Assembly (NCBI GenBank): GCA_001899635.1
Contig: MKVQ01000022.1
Span: 62,001 to 126,000, forward strand
Length of the DNA: 64,000 nt
DNA from: Myxococcales bacterium 68-20
Lineage (GTDB): Bacteria; Myxococcota_A; Polyangia; Polyangiales; Polyangiaceae
Direction of reading: 5' to 3'
Positions within the stretch are counted from its first letter, which is position 1. The number at the start of each line of letters is the position of its first letter. The position numbers and the translations under genes are program-made. The notes beneath the pieces were generated by a model, which was given only the letters and a program-made list of their open reading frames with translations, did not search any database and was not told where the DNA came from. Shown in pieces: positions 12,922-17,263 of the stretch.

Positions 12922-13434
12922 CTAGACGATGGTGAGCGCGGTCTCGACGAACGCTCGCGCCCCGCCGTCCCAGACGAAGAGCTTGCGATCGTCGACGACG
13001 CCCGAGCGGACCGACGTGACGAGATACGCGAGGTCGTAGGTCGGCGCATCGCCGCCCATCGTGGCGGCCGCGGCGTCGGTCTCGGAGAAGTACGCGCCCA
13101 CGTCGAGGTGCGAATGGTAGAGCACCTTCACGGGGCGCCCGTTCGACTCCCCTGCCCGCACGGCGCGCTCGAACTTGAGCGGATCGATGTCGAAGTACAT
13201 CCGGCCGGTGCGCGGATAGGTCTCCGGATCGAGCCGGTGCAGCTTGTTGGCGCGGTTCTCCATCGGGACGATCTCGTCCACGAGGAGCGCGTCGGCGTCC
13301 GGACCGAGGAGAAGGCCGCAGCTCTCCTCCTCGCGCCCGTACGCGGCGACGGCCTCGGCATCGACACGCTCGATGACGTTGCGAGCGACCCGGAGGTCAC
13401 CCTTGATCCACGGATGTTTCGCTACGTCACTCAC
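12922..13434 (-). CDS. JAMM/MPN+ metallopeptidase, Mec-like (CysO-cysteine hydrolase)
   Basis: 170 residues with a complete JAMM zinc motif: Glu in GREEESCGLLLG (about residues 35-37), then HSH at 107-109, Ser117 and Asp120 (HSHLDVGAYFSETD). In actinobacteria the homologous Mec releases cysteine from the C-terminus of the sulfur carrier CysO. Here it is the last gene of an operon that also encodes a CysO-like carrier, a CysM-like synthase and an E1-like enzyme, so the same job is inferred. The GTG at 13434 is chosen over a TTG at 13440 because GAGGGAGA lies 6 bases before the GTG and directly abuts the TTG. It lies about 24 bases after the cysM-like gene. Confidence 0.85.
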   Translation of the reverse strand: MSDVAKHPWIKGDLRVARNVIERVDAEAVAAYGREEESCGLLLGPDADALLVDEIVPMENRANKLHRLDPETYPRTGRMYFDIDPLKFERAVRAGESNGRPVKVLYHSHLDVGAYFSETDAAAATMGGDAPTYDLAYLVTSVRSGVVDDRKLFVWDGGARAFVETALTIV

Positions 13435-13458
13435 GCGCAATCTCCCTCGTATTCTCGT

Positions 13459-14406
13459 TCACCAGACGTATTTCTTTTCCCAGCGCAGCGGCGAGAAGTA
13501 GCGATCGCCGCGGTCGCAGACGATACCGACGACGCAGCCGGGCTTGCCCTCGGTCTGGAGCTTCTCCGCGATGCTCACCGCGGCGAAGAGGTTCGCGCCG
13601 GACGAGTGCCCCACATGGAGCCCTTCCTCCCGCGCGAGTCGGTCGGCCATGTCCCAGCCGGCTTCGGTCGAGACCGGGAAGACCTCGTCATGGGCCGTCG
13701 GATCGTAGATCGGCGGGACGATGCTCGAGGCCATGTGCTTCAGCCCCTCGAGGCCGTGGAGCGGTGAGTCCGGCTCGACCGCGACGCAGCGGATCGGACG
13801 ATGGTGCTCTTTCAGCCGTCGCGCCGTGCCCATCATCGTCCCGCTCGTGCCGAGGCCCGCGACGAAGTGCGTGATCCGATCTCCGAGGTCGCGCAGGATC
13901 TCGGGGCCGGTGCCGTGATAGTGCGCGAGCGGGTTGGACGGGTTCGCGTACTGATCGGGGTAGAAGTATCGGTCGGGGTCCTCGGCGACGATCTTCTTCG
14001 CGAGACGGATCGCGCCGTCGGAGCCTTCGAGCGGGTCGGAGAATACGATCTCCGTGCCGAACGCCCGCGCGATGTCCTTTCGCGCCTTCGAGACGTTGGA
14101 CGGCATCACGAGGCGCACTTTGATCCCGAGCGCTGCCCCGAAGAGCGAATACGCGACGCCGGTGTTCCCGCTCGTCGAGTCGAGCAGGATCTTGTCCCTC
14201 GTGAGGCGGCCGTCCTTCTGCGCGTCCTGGATCATCCGGAGGGCGGCGCGGTCCTTGACGCTCCCACCAGGGTTCTCGAACTCGAGCTTCGCGTAGACGG
14301 GGACGTCCGGCGCCTTCTTCGTGACGTTGCGGAGCCGGAGGAGCGGCGTGTCGCCGACTGCCTCGACCACCGATTCGATCCGCCGCGCCCGGAGCCAGCC
14401 GCTCAT
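13459..14406 (-). CDS. cysM: CysM-like, probably sulfur-carrier-dependent cysteine synthase
   Basis: 315 residues of the PLP fold-type II cysteine synthase family. PLP Lys51 lies in NPGGSVKDR, the substrate loop TSGNTG is at 78-83, and the phosphate-binding loop is GLGTSGTMMG. The C-terminal third (HGLEGL, VPPIYDPT) resembles the CysM subgroup that takes sulfur from thiocarboxylated CysO with O-phosphoserine as acceptor, rather than free sulfide. The operon contains CysO-like, E1-like and Mec-like genes, which supports this. The start overlaps the preceding gene by 4 bases and has GGGGAGGGACGCGA just upstream. The exact acceptor (O-phosphoserine or O-acetylserine) cannot be fixed from sequence. 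Confidence 0.88.
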   Translation of the reverse strand: MSGWLRARRIESVVEAVGDTPLLRLRNVTKKAPDVPVYAKLEFENPGGSVKDRAALRMIQDAQKDGRLTRDKILLDSTSGNTGVAYSLFGAALGIKVRLVMPSNVSKARKDIARAFGTEIVFSDPLEGSDGAIRLAKKIVAEDPDRYFYPDQYANPSNPLAHYHGTGPEILRDLGDRITHFVAGLGTSGTMMGTARRLKEHHRPIRCVAVEPDSPLHGLEGLKHMASSIVPPIYDPTAHDEVFPVSTEAGWDMADRLAREEGLHVGHSSGANLFAAVSIAEKLQTEGKPGCVVGIVCDRGDRYFSPLRWEKKYVW

Positions 14407-14726
14407 TCGCGTCCCTCCCCGAGCACGCTGCGGATGGCGGCGAGCGCCCGGAGCGCGCCCTCGGCGACCTCGCGGGCAGGAGCGTGGCGGAGACCGAGTG
14501 ACGCGATGTCGGCCGCGCGGTCGACATGAGCCGGAGACACCGCCTCTGCCCCCTCGGTGACGGTCATTCCCGCGCGGCTGACATAGCGATGCTCGATCGT
14601 GCGGACGAAGCCACTCGATTGGACCGCGACCGTGGCCGCGCACAGCTTCGCCTGCCCGCGCTCGCCGATCTCGGCGAGGCGGGTCTGCCGGCTGTAGCGC
14701 CGCTTCTGGTCCGCGGACGTCGTCAT
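14403..14726 (-). CDS. Small protein: detached arginine-finger segment and degenerate N-terminal half of a ThiF/MoeB-type E1
   Basis: 107 residues. Residues 9-28 (RRYSRQTRLAEIGERGQAKL) match the N-terminal segment found in nearly all ThiF/MoeB E1 enzymes, whose Arg (MoeB Arg14; here Arg13) reaches into the partner subunit's active site. What follows lines up without gaps with the first beta-alpha-beta unit of the E1 Rossmann fold: VAVQSSGFVRTIEHRYVSRAGM stands where VLVVGAGGLG and LARAGV would be, but the glycine-rich nucleotide loop is lost. The last part may match the following helix. It overlaps both neighbours by 4 bases (ATGA), the cysO-like gene before and cysM after. The operon's full E1 lacks exactly this N-terminal segment. 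A role as the E1's partner subunit is inferred; a decaying paralogue is the alternative. Confidence 0.8.
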   Translation of the reverse strand: MTTSADQKRRYSRQTRLAEIGERGQAKLCAATVAVQSSGFVRTIEHRYVSRAGMTVTEGAEAVSPAHVDRAADIASLGLRHAPAREVAEGALRALAAIRSVLGEGRE

Positions 14727-14995
14727 CCGCCGGCGATCGCGGGGATGATGCTGATCTGCTCGCCCGCCTTGAGCTCGGTGCCGAGGCCGCCGGTGAAGCG
14801 AACGTCCTCCTCGCCGACGTAGATGTTGATGAAGCGACGCACGCCCTTCTCGTCGAGCAGGCGATCCTTCAGGCCCGGGTGACGCTTCTCGAGGTCCTCG
14901 ATGACCTCGCCGACGGTCGCCCCGGCCGCCTTCACCTCGTCCGCGCCGCCGGTGAGCGTCCTAAGGGCTGCGGGGATCCTCACGATCGTGTCCAT
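14723..14995 (-). CDS. cysO: CysO/ThiS/MoaD-like sulfur carrier protein
   Basis: 90 residues with a beta-grasp pattern ending in a bare diglycine (IIPAIAGG, Gly89-Gly90), the site that is adenylated and converted to a thiocarboxylate. No residues follow the GG, so no maturation cut is needed. Segments such as VRIPAALRTLTGG and FINIYVGEEDVRF are typical of CysO/MoaD-type carriers. The neighbours decide the role: E1-like gene upstream, detached E1 half-domain downstream (4-base overlap), then CysM-like synthase and JAMM peptidase. The ATG is preceded by GAAGGAGAAGCC. MoaD or ThiS functions are less likely because no molybdopterin or thiamine genes are nearby. Confidence 0.87.
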   Translation of the reverse strand: MDTIVRIPAALRTLTGGADEVKAAGATVGEVIEDLEKRHPGLKDRLLDEKGVRRFINIYVGEEDVRFTGGLGTELKAGEQISIIPAIAGG

Positions 14996-15046
14996 GGCTT
15001 CTCCTTCGTGTGTTCAATCCGGCTCGGTCGCGACCGAGCCTTCGAG

Positions 15047-15787
15047 CTACGTGCTTCGTTGCGACAGGCAGACGCCTTCGACGTACCGCCTGGGTTCGAT
15101 GTCCTGGATGTGAGCGGCATCGCCGCAGAGCGAGCAGTCCGCCCTTCGGGTGACCCGTCGCCGCCGCGAGACGAGCGACTTGCCGTCGAAGGTGAAGAGC
15201 TCGCCGAAGACGTCCTCGCCGGCGAGGACCGAGAGCGCGAGGTCCGCCTGCGCTGCGCCGACGAGGCCGACCATCGGCCCGACCACGCCGGCCTCCGCGC
15301 AGTTCGGTACGTTCTCGAGCGGGACGTCCTCGAAGAGGCAGCGGTAGCAGGGGCCACCGCTCGGCCCGACTGCGAGCGCCGTTCCGTGCCATCGGATGGC
15401 AGCGGCATGGACGATCGGGCGCTTCGCGATGGCGCACGCGTCCGCCGCGAGGAACTTGGTGGCGAAGTTGTCGCTCCCCTCGACCACGAGGTCGTACCGA
15501 GCGACGAGCTCGACCGCGTTGGTCGGCAAGAGACGGGTCTCGTGGAGCTCGAGCTCGGCCGAGGGAACGAGCTCCCGGAGGCGCGTGGCGGCGGCGCGAA
15601 CCTTCGACCGGCCGACGTCGTCGTCCTCGAAGAGGACCTGCCGATGGAGGTTCGAGATGTCGACCTCGTCGTCGTCCGCGATGCCGAGCGCGCCGACACC
15701 TGCGCGAGCGAGCGCGATCGCGGCGGGGCATCCGAGCCCGCCGACGCCCACGACGAGGACACGCGCGGACGCCCACGCCGACGTCAT
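15047..15787 (-). CDS. MoeB/ThiF-type E1 adenylyltransferase lacking the N-terminal arginine-finger segment
   Basis: 246 residues. It should adenylate the C-terminal glycine of the CysO-like carrier with ATP. Visible sites: nucleotide loop VGVGGLG (14-19), Arg49 in SNLHRQ, Lys62, Asp106 in EGSDN, zinc cysteines CYRC (147/150) and CSLC (218/221), and Cys163 in the PNCAEAG segment. It begins directly at the first Rossmann strand (MTSAWASARVLVV) and so lacks the roughly 30-residue RYxRQ...GQ..L segment normal for the family. The start overlaps the cysK stop by 4 bases, so a longer N-terminus would have to run through cysK, and that extension carries no such motif. There is no C-terminal rhodanese domain, unlike MoeZ. 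Confidence 0.88.
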   Translation of the reverse strand: MTSAWASARVLVVGVGGLGCPAAIALARAGVGALGIADDDEVDISNLHRQVLFEDDDVGRSKVRAAATRLRELVPSAELELHETRLLPTNAVELVARYDLVVEGSDNFATKFLAADACAIAKRPIVHAAAIRWHGTALAVGPSGGPCYRCLFEDVPLENVPNCAEAGVVGPMVGLVGAAQADLALSVLAGEDVFGELFTFDGKSLVSRRRRVTRRADCSLCGDAAHIQDIEPRRYVEGVCLSQRST

Positions 15788-16755
15788 GGCCCCTCCGAGA
15801 GGTGCGGGAAATACTCTTCGAGGCTGAAGTATCGCTCGCCGGTATCGCAGAGGAGCGTGACGACGTTCTTGGCGGGATCGCCGAGCTCGCGCGCTACCTC
15901 GTGCGCGACGTGCACGGCTGCGCCCGAGCTGATCCCGACGAGCAGCCCCTCGTGCTGCGCGAGGCGCACCTTCGCCCGCCACGCATCGTCGTCGGAGACG
16001 GTCCGGACCTCGGAGACGACCGACGCGTCGTAGTTCTTCGGGACGAAGCCGGCTGCGAGGCCCTGGATCTTCGTCGGGCCGCGCTCGCCCCGCGAGATCG
16101 TCGCGCATGCGTCGGGCTCGACCGCGAGCACGCGTACGTCGGGGAACACCTTCCTGAGCTCACGGCCGACGCCGCTCACCGTGCCGCCGGTGCCGACGGT
16201 GCCGACGAACGCGTCGATCGAGAGGCCTTCCATCGCCTGCAGCAGCTCGAACGTGGTCGTGCGCGCATGAACCGACGGGTTGGCCGCGTTCTCGAACTGC
16301 TGGGGCATGAATGCGCCCGGCGTGCGCTGGACGATCTCGCGGGCCTTCGCGATCGCTCCCTCCATCTGCGCCTCCGCGGGGGTCAGGACGATCTCCGCGC
16401 CGTAGGCCTCGAGGAGCTGGCGACGCTCGAGGCTCATGCTCTCCGGCATCGTGAGGATGAGCCGGTAGCCCTTCACCGCGCAGACGAGCGCGAGCCCGAT
16501 GCCGGTGTTGCCGCTCGTCGGCTCGACCACCGGACCAGGCGCGACGAGGAGGCCGCGCGCCTCTGCGTCCTCGATCATCGCGGAGCAGATGCGGTCCTTC
16601 ACGCTCCCGCCCGGGTTGAGGTGCTCCATCTTCGCCCAGATCGCCGCGCGTCGTCCTGGACGAGCCGCAGCATCGCCGCTCGCCTCCGGCCAGTCGGCCC
16701 GCACGCGCACGAGCGGGGTGTGTCCGACGAGCTCGAGCATCGACTGGGCGATCAT
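15784..16755 (-). CDS. cysK: Cysteine synthase (O-acetylserine sulfhydrylase)
   Basis: 323 residues of the PLP fold-type II family. PLP Lys53 lies in NPGGSVKDR, and the motifs PTSGNTGIGLA, GTVGTGGTVSG and GLLVGISSGAA are complete. It resembles CysK/CysM enzymes that use sulfide and O-acetylserine, so the operon carries two cysteine synthases, this one and the CysM-like one. A roughly 15-residue insert (ASGDAAARPGRR) follows the first strand. GAGGAG lies about 10 bases before the ATG. It is the second gene of the operon, 13 bases after the Rrf2 regulator, and its stop overlaps the E1 start. Confidence 0.9.
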   Translation of the reverse strand: MIAQSMLELVGHTPLVRVRADWPEASGDAAARPGRRAAIWAKMEHLNPGGSVKDRICSAMIEDAEARGLLVAPGPVVEPTSGNTGIGLALVCAVKGYRLILTMPESMSLERRQLLEAYGAEIVLTPAEAQMEGAIAKAREIVQRTPGAFMPQQFENAANPSVHARTTTFELLQAMEGLSIDAFVGTVGTGGTVSGVGRELRKVFPDVRVLAVEPDACATISRGERGPTKIQGLAAGFVPKNYDASVVSEVRTVSDDDAWRAKVRLAQHEGLLVGISSGAAVHVAHEVARELGDPAKNVVTLLCDTGERYFSLEEYFPHLSEGP

Positions 16756-16768
16756 CGGGGCGTTCTCC

Positions 16769-17263
16769 TCAGATGACGTAAGGGGTGCTGGCGGTGCGTG
16801 CGCGCGCCGCCAGCGCGACCCGTTCACCGCGCGCGCAGAGGTCCTGCACCGTGATGCCGTCGAAGCACTGCTCGACCGAGCGGGACAGGTCCGCAAGGAC
16901 GGCATCGGTGACGTCTCGTGCATCCACCTCGTCCCGCTTGTCGCTTTTGTCGCGTTTGGCCGCGCGGCGCGGCCGGCGCGCGGCGGTCTTCTCGGCAAGC
17001 ACGACGGGCCCCTCCACCGCACGGAGGACGTCGCCGAGCCTCATCTCGTCCGGCTCGCGCGCGAGGCTGAAGCCCCCGCGCGGGCCACGCTTCGAGTCGA
17101 CGAGGCCGCCACGCTTGAGCAGCTGGAAGATCTGCTCGAGGAACCGAAGCGGGATGCGCTGGCGCGTCGCTACGTCACGGACCTGGACCGGCGCCTCTCC
17201 GTGGAGCGCGAGGTCGAAGACCGCCCGGAGCGCGTACCTGCCGCGGTTCGAGAGCCTGAGCAC
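16769..17263 (-). CDS. Rrf2-family transcriptional regulator of the cysteine operon
   Basis: 164 residues. The N-terminal 80 residues are a typical Rrf2 winged helix (MLRLSNRGRYALRAVFDLAL; recognition segment IPLRFLEQIFQLLKRGGLV; wing KRGPRGGFSLAR). The IscR-type cysteine trio is absent: the corresponding loop at about 92-118 is instead a Lys/Arg/Asp-rich insert, so Fe-S binding is unlikely and it is more like CymR, the cysteine-status regulator of Firmicutes. As first gene of the cysteine operon it probably controls the operon and itself. The GTG start lies only three bases after a perfect palindrome, which suggests a leaderless or nearly leaderless mRNA and autoregulation. Confidence 0.87.
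   Translation of the reverse strand: MLRLSNRGRYALRAVFDLALHGEAPVQVRDVATRQRIPLRFLEQIFQLLKRGGLVDSKRGPRGGFSLAREPDEMRLGDVLRAVEGPVVLAEKTAARRPRRAAKRDKSDKRDEVDARDVTDAVLADLSRSVEQCFDGITVQDLCARGERVALAARARTASTPYVI

Follow-up and report, generated by a model that had tools for sequence, protein, structure and literature searches.

How can a sulfur carrier be activated when the activating enzyme (E1) encoded beside it lacks the N-terminal arm of its family, and does a neighbouring gene supply what is missing? This question is raised by a minus-strand cysteine operon in a 64,000-nucleotide stretch of Myxococcales bacterium 68-20 (contig MKVQ01000022.1, positions 62,001 to 126,000; hereafter the window), whose genome is 11.9 Mb in size (G000). 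There, the initial annotation had read a short E1 and a separate small protein as a heteromeric E1 for the carrier CysO. In our analysis, it is about 80% probable that these two proteins together form a single asymmetric E1 and that this enzyme adenylates CysO for the synthesis of cysteine, this being the best supported reading of the sequences, their conservation, co-occurrence and selection, the fold matches of the models, and one gene fusion. The two genes are as follows.

15047..15787, minus strand: short E1 of 246 residues, the proposed catalytic subunit (Pfam ThiF, sequence motifs, AlphaFold model).
14403..14726, minus strand: small partner of 107 residues, a miniature pseudo-E1 (arm with Arg13, degenerate beta-alpha-beta unit, linker, C-terminal helix).

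As initially annotated, the window E1 begins at the first Rossmann strand, without the N-terminal RYxRQ arm. Its Pfam ThiF match starts at profile position 18 (E 5.1e-63, residues 5-219), with no second Pfam domain above the cut-off, and neither a catalytic-cysteine insert nor a C-terminal ubiquitin-fold domain was found in it. The motifs GxGGLG and DDDxV..SNLHRQ are present, along with Lys62, Asp106-Asn107, Cys163 (which we take to be at the position of ThiF Cys184 and MoeB Cys187), and the CxxC..CxxC cysteines 147, 150, 218, and 221. Our survey covered 317 genomes of the window's class, and the counts given below for E1 loci and their partners are among the matches listed, namely 147 of the best 150 E1 matches, with the window included. 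The other three (G239, G240, and G301) were each paired with a small protein in the same search, and weaker E1s beyond the best 150 were looked at for a few added loci (e.g., L345, L346, L350, L351, and L368). Asp38, Asn46, Arg49, Lys62, and Asp106 are invariant across all 147 loci, as are the zinc-site residues Cys147, Cys150, and Cys218, with Cys221 present in 139; the short E1s have retained the MoeB/ThiF-type ATP/Mg residues and the Cys4 zinc site. Cys163 is replaced by serine in two of the 147 (L036 and L037).

A mis-called start does not account for the missing arm, since an RYxRQ...GxxGQ arm is found in frame upstream of the short E1 in none of the 147 loci. In the 112 loci for which CysK was available, the most upstream start that could be used is separated from the glycine loop by a median of 12 residues, and never by more than 37. 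The same test recovered the arm in 20 of 20 MoeB-type proteins of the phylum picked without regard to it, and it is present in a further 63 of 63, these being the MoeB of the window genome and 62 proteins found by the arm pattern itself. Residues 1-222 of the AlphaFold model of the window E1 (predicted local distance difference test, pLDDT, of 91.7) align with MoeB 23-248, and residues 1-225 with ThiF 20-245 (Z about 30; ranges here and below mark the outer limits of an alignment and do not imply residue-by-residue pairing). In SAE2 chains, the counterpart of residue 1 is residue 8 or 9.

The 107-residue protein starts with MTTSADQKRRYSRQ, where the R of RQ is Arg13, and then continues colinearly with an E1 whose glycine loop is lost (QSSGFVR). 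The arm was thus correctly placed by the initial annotation, and so was the degenerate loop, but the likeness to an E1 does not end with one beta-alpha-beta unit and extends to the C-terminal helix. Against Pfam, the small protein gave nothing at E 1 or better, so the ThiF gathering score was not reached, and NCBIfam MoeB models matched residues 3-54 (best E 1.8e-6) far under their score cut-offs. When the profile of the small-protein family was compared with PDB sequences, Uba4 (6.5e-9), ThiF (9.7e-8), and MoeB (8.3e-6) were matched, and sequence-profile agreement with E1s covers the N-terminal 60-75 residues. Beyond these, the C-terminal helix (about residues 82-101) is similar to the helix that follows the crossover loop in E1s. 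In distant members it approximates GxxGSLxAxEAIKxxLGxG in the family alignment, the motif of that helix in MoeB and ThiF, and the corresponding stretch is present in the E1 alignment.

The model of the small protein (pLDDT 88.1, predicted template modelling score 0.80) aligned over residues 2-107 with ThiF 0-215 (Z 8.2, root-mean-square deviation 3.1, 104 residues aligned) and over residues 1-107 with MoeB 2-221 (Z 7.9) and Uba4 6-234 (Z 9.6), and also over its whole length with SAE1 9-326 and APPBP1. Moreover, the first 22 Foldseek rows listed for this model are all E1-superfamily chains. As modelled, then, the small protein has an E1 fold from which the catalytic middle is missing, and amounts to more than an arm and one beta-alpha-beta unit. 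Low-complexity repeats, within or after the conserved protein, were seen at the E1 C-terminus of one locus (L053) and in the small protein of another (L141), the repeat types in these two being Ser-Asp/Val-Thr runs and GSPTHVEGDREG units.

A partner is present at the E1 locus in 135 of the 147 cases, once fused to the E1, and small-protein homologs occupy the same operon position across the window's order; the full arrangement CysK-E1-CysO-small protein-CysM is colinear in 96 loci, many loci being cut short. Position 13 of the partner is arginine in 132 of the 135, lysine in two, and alanine in one, while Gly24 is kept in 134 and Gln25 in 128, and a strict arm motif was detected in 121. At the ATP-loop columns 36-41, no residue is retained in more than 80 of the 135. 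The small frame is selected as a protein, with a median ratio of nonsynonymous to synonymous substitution rates (dN/dS) of 0.225 over 62 pairs (range 0.14-0.85; close pairs that share relatives and are not independent), next to medians of 0.126 for the E1 and 0.111 for CysO (64 pairs each, again with shared relatives). A chance frame was rejected on account of the conserved locus position and purifying selection, and a vestige on account of the latter. Given that the arm is kept, the ATP loop is variable, and dN/dS is low, the small protein appears to be selected for the arm and not for ATP binding.

These data bear on the idea that the short E1 is self-sufficient, or uses the arm of MoeB, with the small protein as a decaying duplicate. 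This we regard as very improbable. It would accord with the three genomes of one genus that lack the small protein (see below), with the armed MoeB-type protein in the window genome, and with the report that the arm arginine is non-essential in MoeB and ThiF (PMC13139853). Yet the small protein is under purifying selection and has held on to Arg13 in nearly all partners, and in one genome of completeness 100 (G216) the CysO E1 is the only E1-family match, all 49 candidates having been scored, and the small protein is present.

As regards the 12 loci without a partner alongside, six are at contig ends (L124, L126, L131, L153, L157, and L158), three have the partner on another contig of the same genome (L154, L155, and L159), one is unclear (L149), and two are true absences (L130 and L134). 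Conversely, 18 small-protein matches have no listed E1 on their contig. Here, 13 genomes do have an E1, be it whole, partial, in two frames, or on a different contig (G303, G307, G055, G225, G215, G256, G255, G053, G312, G126, G121, G120, and G115), two matches run off the end of a contig (G263 and G076), one is a MoeB (G113), and two have no E1 within 1.5 kb (G187 and G148). The co-occurrence expected from the initial annotation is therefore general among the listed loci, though not without exception. In the 14.78-Mb single contig of G303 (L319:5350-6091, L340), the CysO E1 occupies two overlapping frames, by frameshift or error, with the small protein, CysO, CysM, and Mec beside it. In broken-up operons (L316, L317, L347, and L348), the small gene stays beside the carrier CysO.

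Structure matching sorted the two proteins onto opposite halves of the eukaryotic heterodimeric E1s. In tables of up to 50 entries each, where every SUMO or NEDD8 E1 entry is represented by its best chain, the best chain for the small-protein model was the inactive half throughout the entries listed, namely SAE1 in 7 of 7 SUMO-E1 entries and APPBP1 in 7 of 7 NEDD8-E1 entries. For the short E1 model, it was the catalytic half, being SAE2 in 11 of 11 SUMO-E1 heterodimers and UBA3 in 8 of 8 NEDD8-E1 entries, with one additional row for SAE1 solved alone. Chain identities were assigned by chain length and by what is known of these entries. On the one-chain UBA6, the small protein fell on the N-terminal part (35-414) and the E1 on 452-957.

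Longer partners and a fusion complete the picture. In family f15, the partners have 183-249 residues in six of seven loci (the seventh is cut by a contig end) and contain the arm and remnants of the middle, with a terminal CxxC in three; of two tested against Pfam ThiF (cut-off 28.1), one scored above it (41.5) and the other below (23.9). Lower-scoring short E1s in family f22 (L345, L346, L350, and L351) likewise adjoin a longer partner. In G257, the E1 and small protein share one frame of 379 codons (356 residues from the ATG) with a proline-rich linker, which is the only fusion among 15 loci whose E1 and small genes lie at most 150 bases apart. In a tree of 54 rows, the 25 short E1s included group together as one clade within the bacterial MoeB-type E1s, and the seven long pseudo-E1s sit on a long branch, for which a CysO E1 or a MoeB are both possible sources. 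At one f15 locus, a frame that by eye resembles a threonine synthase dependent on pyridoxal phosphate (PLP) lies between E1 and CysO (L160:3816-5201), and a similarly sized gap is seen at other f15 loci.

How might the two proteins work together? The short E1, its own N-terminal arm lost, would bind ATP, CysO, and zinc, and the small protein would be an E1 cut down to the parts of a dimer partner, that is, the arm, the first helix unit, and the post-crossover interface helix. Unable to bind ATP on its own, it would take the place of one E1 subunit in a 1:1 dimer, and its Arg13 would reach the ATP site of the neighbouring E1. In Uba4, the second subunit contributes Arg18 to complete the ATP site (PMC7527816), and from the constant offset of four between Uba4 residues and those of the MoeB ATP site (Gly41, Arg73, Lys86, and Asp130; PMC12355090), Uba4 Arg18 should correspond to MoeB Arg14 and to Arg13 of the small protein. 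The dimer face of TcdA is made by helices 1, 3, 4, and 8 (PMC4405576), of which the small protein retains counterparts of helices 1 and 3 and, going by the aligned range alone, also of helix 8; with the arm, first Rossmann helix, and last helix kept, this face points to a 1:1 dimer. The heteromeric reading is well supported by comparative genomics and fold, and we infer from it the biochemical steps: that the two proteins bind each other 1:1, that Arg13 lies in the active site, that adenylation is affected, and, from the operon, that CysO is the substrate.

Alternatively, the short E1 could still be a homodimer, to which the small protein either adds the arm only, as a 2:2 split enzyme, or acts as a scaffold for CysO, CysM, and E1. 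We consider this unlikely, even if conservation within the small protein is highest in the arm, its gene tracks the carrier (by CysO without E1 in G255 and G256, with the E1 on a different contig [L317 and L316], and by CysO and CysM in G187 and G148), and APPBP1 is described mainly as a scaffold that accelerates UBA3 (PMC6031683). A pure arm donor needs no beta-alpha-beta unit or C-terminal helix, yet the small protein keeps both, including the TcdA-type face equivalents named above, and the inactive copy in f15 retains most of the E1 length.

Several observations weigh against the asymmetric E1, or at least against an indispensable partner. Foremost, in three genomes of genus g37 (L130, L134, and L368, the last outside the 147 loci), the short E1, CysO, CysM, and Mec are found with no partner gene, and genome G047 is a single contig of 10,327,335 bases; the three genomes show that the partner is dispensable. 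For that genus, this is an outcome that the initial annotation had counted as refuting the pairing. As L130, the sole g37 E1 in the tree, falls inside the short-E1 clade at a weakly placed node, the absence looks like a later loss. In two other genomes (G187 of family f31, L347; G148 of family f28, L348), the partner adjoins CysO and CysM, and no E1 lies within 1.5 kb; one partner has alanine at position 13 (L041). Moreover, the Arg finger is stated to be non-essential in MoeB and ThiF (PMC13139853), and UBA3 is active without APPBP1, which accelerates it (PMC6031683). Given these reports and the g37 genomes, the partner may be more of an accelerator and stabiliser than an absolute requirement, and its role as a dimer half may matter at least as much as its arginine.

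Of the comparisons between the two proteins, the profile-profile one of partner with short E1 was not significant, and the top inter-protein coevolution score of 6.83 (123 sequences; the leading pairs include E1 173-174 with partner 48-49 and 54) is suggestive at most, as 30 within-cluster shuffles gave scores of up to 7.00. The Foldseek E-values of the small-protein model are weak (best 0.038), and its Z of 7-10 is near the range that the tool calls common. The arm itself accounts for part of the sorting into catalytic and inactive halves, and the fusion comes from one genome, where a stop lost through sequencing or assembly error is possible. In four E1s (L127, L130, L134, and L368), the residue following Asp106, a near-invariant Asn at position 107, is replaced by Arg. 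This change, shared by all three g37 genomes, looked like a built-in substitute for Arg13 but is not put forward as one, since L127 has both the Arg and a partner.

As for its origin, we think it probable that an asymmetric heterodimeric E1 arose independently in bacteria through duplication of a homodimeric enzyme, with an armless copy for catalysis and a copy for the arm and dimer face that shrank to about 100 residues, and that the stages (long pseudo-E1, miniature, fusion, and loss) persist in living genomes as a natural model of the origin of the SUMO and NEDD8 E1s. New here are the miniature pseudo-E1 fold, the longer inactive versions, the one fusion, and the sorting of the halves by structure matching. 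Why SUMO and NEDD8 E1s became heterodimers is an open question, on which it has been speculated that a bacterial catalytic subunit gave way to a pair of catalytic subunit and scaffold (PMC6031683). A bacterial pair with graded intermediates makes this step testable using small proteins, including whether an inactive half is kept for its Arg finger or for its dimer face. If true, the pair would be a simple counterpart of the SUMO/NEDD8 E1 split in a group of soil bacteria, and would identify which enzyme activates the carrier in the CysO pathway of a large bacterial group and show the lower size limit reached by a pseudo-E1.

The remaining genes of the operon, whose order is Rrf2-CysK-E1-CysO-small protein-CysM-Mec, are these.

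16769..17263, minus strand: Rrf2-family regulator, first in the operon (Pfam Rrf2, 2e-32).
15784..16758, minus strand: CysK cysteine synthase (TIGR01139 above cut-off), whose stop overlaps the E1 ATG.
14723..14995, minus strand: CysO/ThiS/SAMP-like sulfur carrier of 90 residues with a Gly-Gly C-terminus (Pfam ThiS, 4.1e-16).
13459..14406, minus strand: CysM-type PLP cysteine synthase (best NCBIfam matches cysKM and cysM, both under cut-off).
12922..13440, minus strand: Mec-like JAMM protease (Prok-JAB, 2.9e-11).

Stop and start codons overlap as ATGA at three junctions (CysK/E1, CysO/small protein, and small protein/CysM), and CysO matches the SAMP1 model at 1e-14, slightly below that model's cut-off. 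With a Gly-Gly ubiquitin-like carrier, CysM, a JAMM protease, and an E1 together, this is a cysteine operon of the CysO type. Within 13459-16758, distinct CysK- and CysM-type synthases flank E1, CysO, and the partner in a single operon with an Rrf2 regulator.

How does this pair compare with known systems? In keeping with the initial annotation, we found no description of a bacterial heterodimeric, heteromeric, or split E1 in the open-access papers searched. A scan of genome contigs for the arm motif gave 72 loci, of which 62 are one-piece MoeB-type proteins and ten (L164-L171, L191, and L226) have a stand-alone small protein by CysO or a CysO-type E1, all of them in Myxococcales, Polyangiaceae, or Labilithrix records. 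Outside Myxococcota, the scan returned one-piece MoeB-type proteins and no stand-alone small protein, as judged with one arm motif that distant ones could escape. Among 377 genomes of the phylum, the E1 matches listed from outside the class come no better than 2.2e-75 and have open frames mostly of about 400 residues, the length expected for MoeB with a rhodanese domain. CysM and Mec belong to the mycobacterial CysO pathway, in which MoeZR combines an arm and a rhodanese domain in a single chain. The carrier is shared with that pathway, where MoeZR is the described E1 for CysO, which it sulfurates, and has its sulfurtransferase activity named in the headings (PMC3227635); unlike MoeZR, the window E1 is split and without a rhodanese domain. 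Operons of carrier, E1, JAB, and cysteine synthase make up row 4c of PMC1779556, with the E1 fused to rhodanese, and that text nowhere uses the word stem Myxococc.

The window E1 shares its fold, ATP residues, and zinc cysteines with MoeB, ThiF, and Uba4, in which the arginine of one subunit also sits in the site of the other (PMC7527816); in contrast to those pairs of identical subunits, each armed, the arm and active site are here encoded by separate genes. Yeast Tcd1-Tcd2, the dehydratase for cyclic N6-threonylcarbamoyladenosine (ct6A), is likewise an E1-like pair, whose inactive subunit Tcd1 is required for the stability of the active Tcd2 and gives it an Arg finger (PMC13139853), but it is eukaryotic, acts on tRNA, and has a full ThiF-like domain plus a C-terminal domain in both subunits. 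In SAE1-UBA2 (UBA2 being SAE2) and APPBP1-UBA3, as in the window, the catalytic half is armless, and the inactive half has the arm and no working ATP site. Unlike those eukaryotic heterodimers, the window E1, at 246 residues, has no catalytic-cysteine or ubiquitin-fold domain, its carrier is CysO, and the operon has no conjugating enzyme (E2). The bacterial and eukaryotic pairs likely have separate origins, judging from a tree of bacterial sequences, and their inactive halves differ in size, with about 310 residues in solved SAE1 chains and 107 here.

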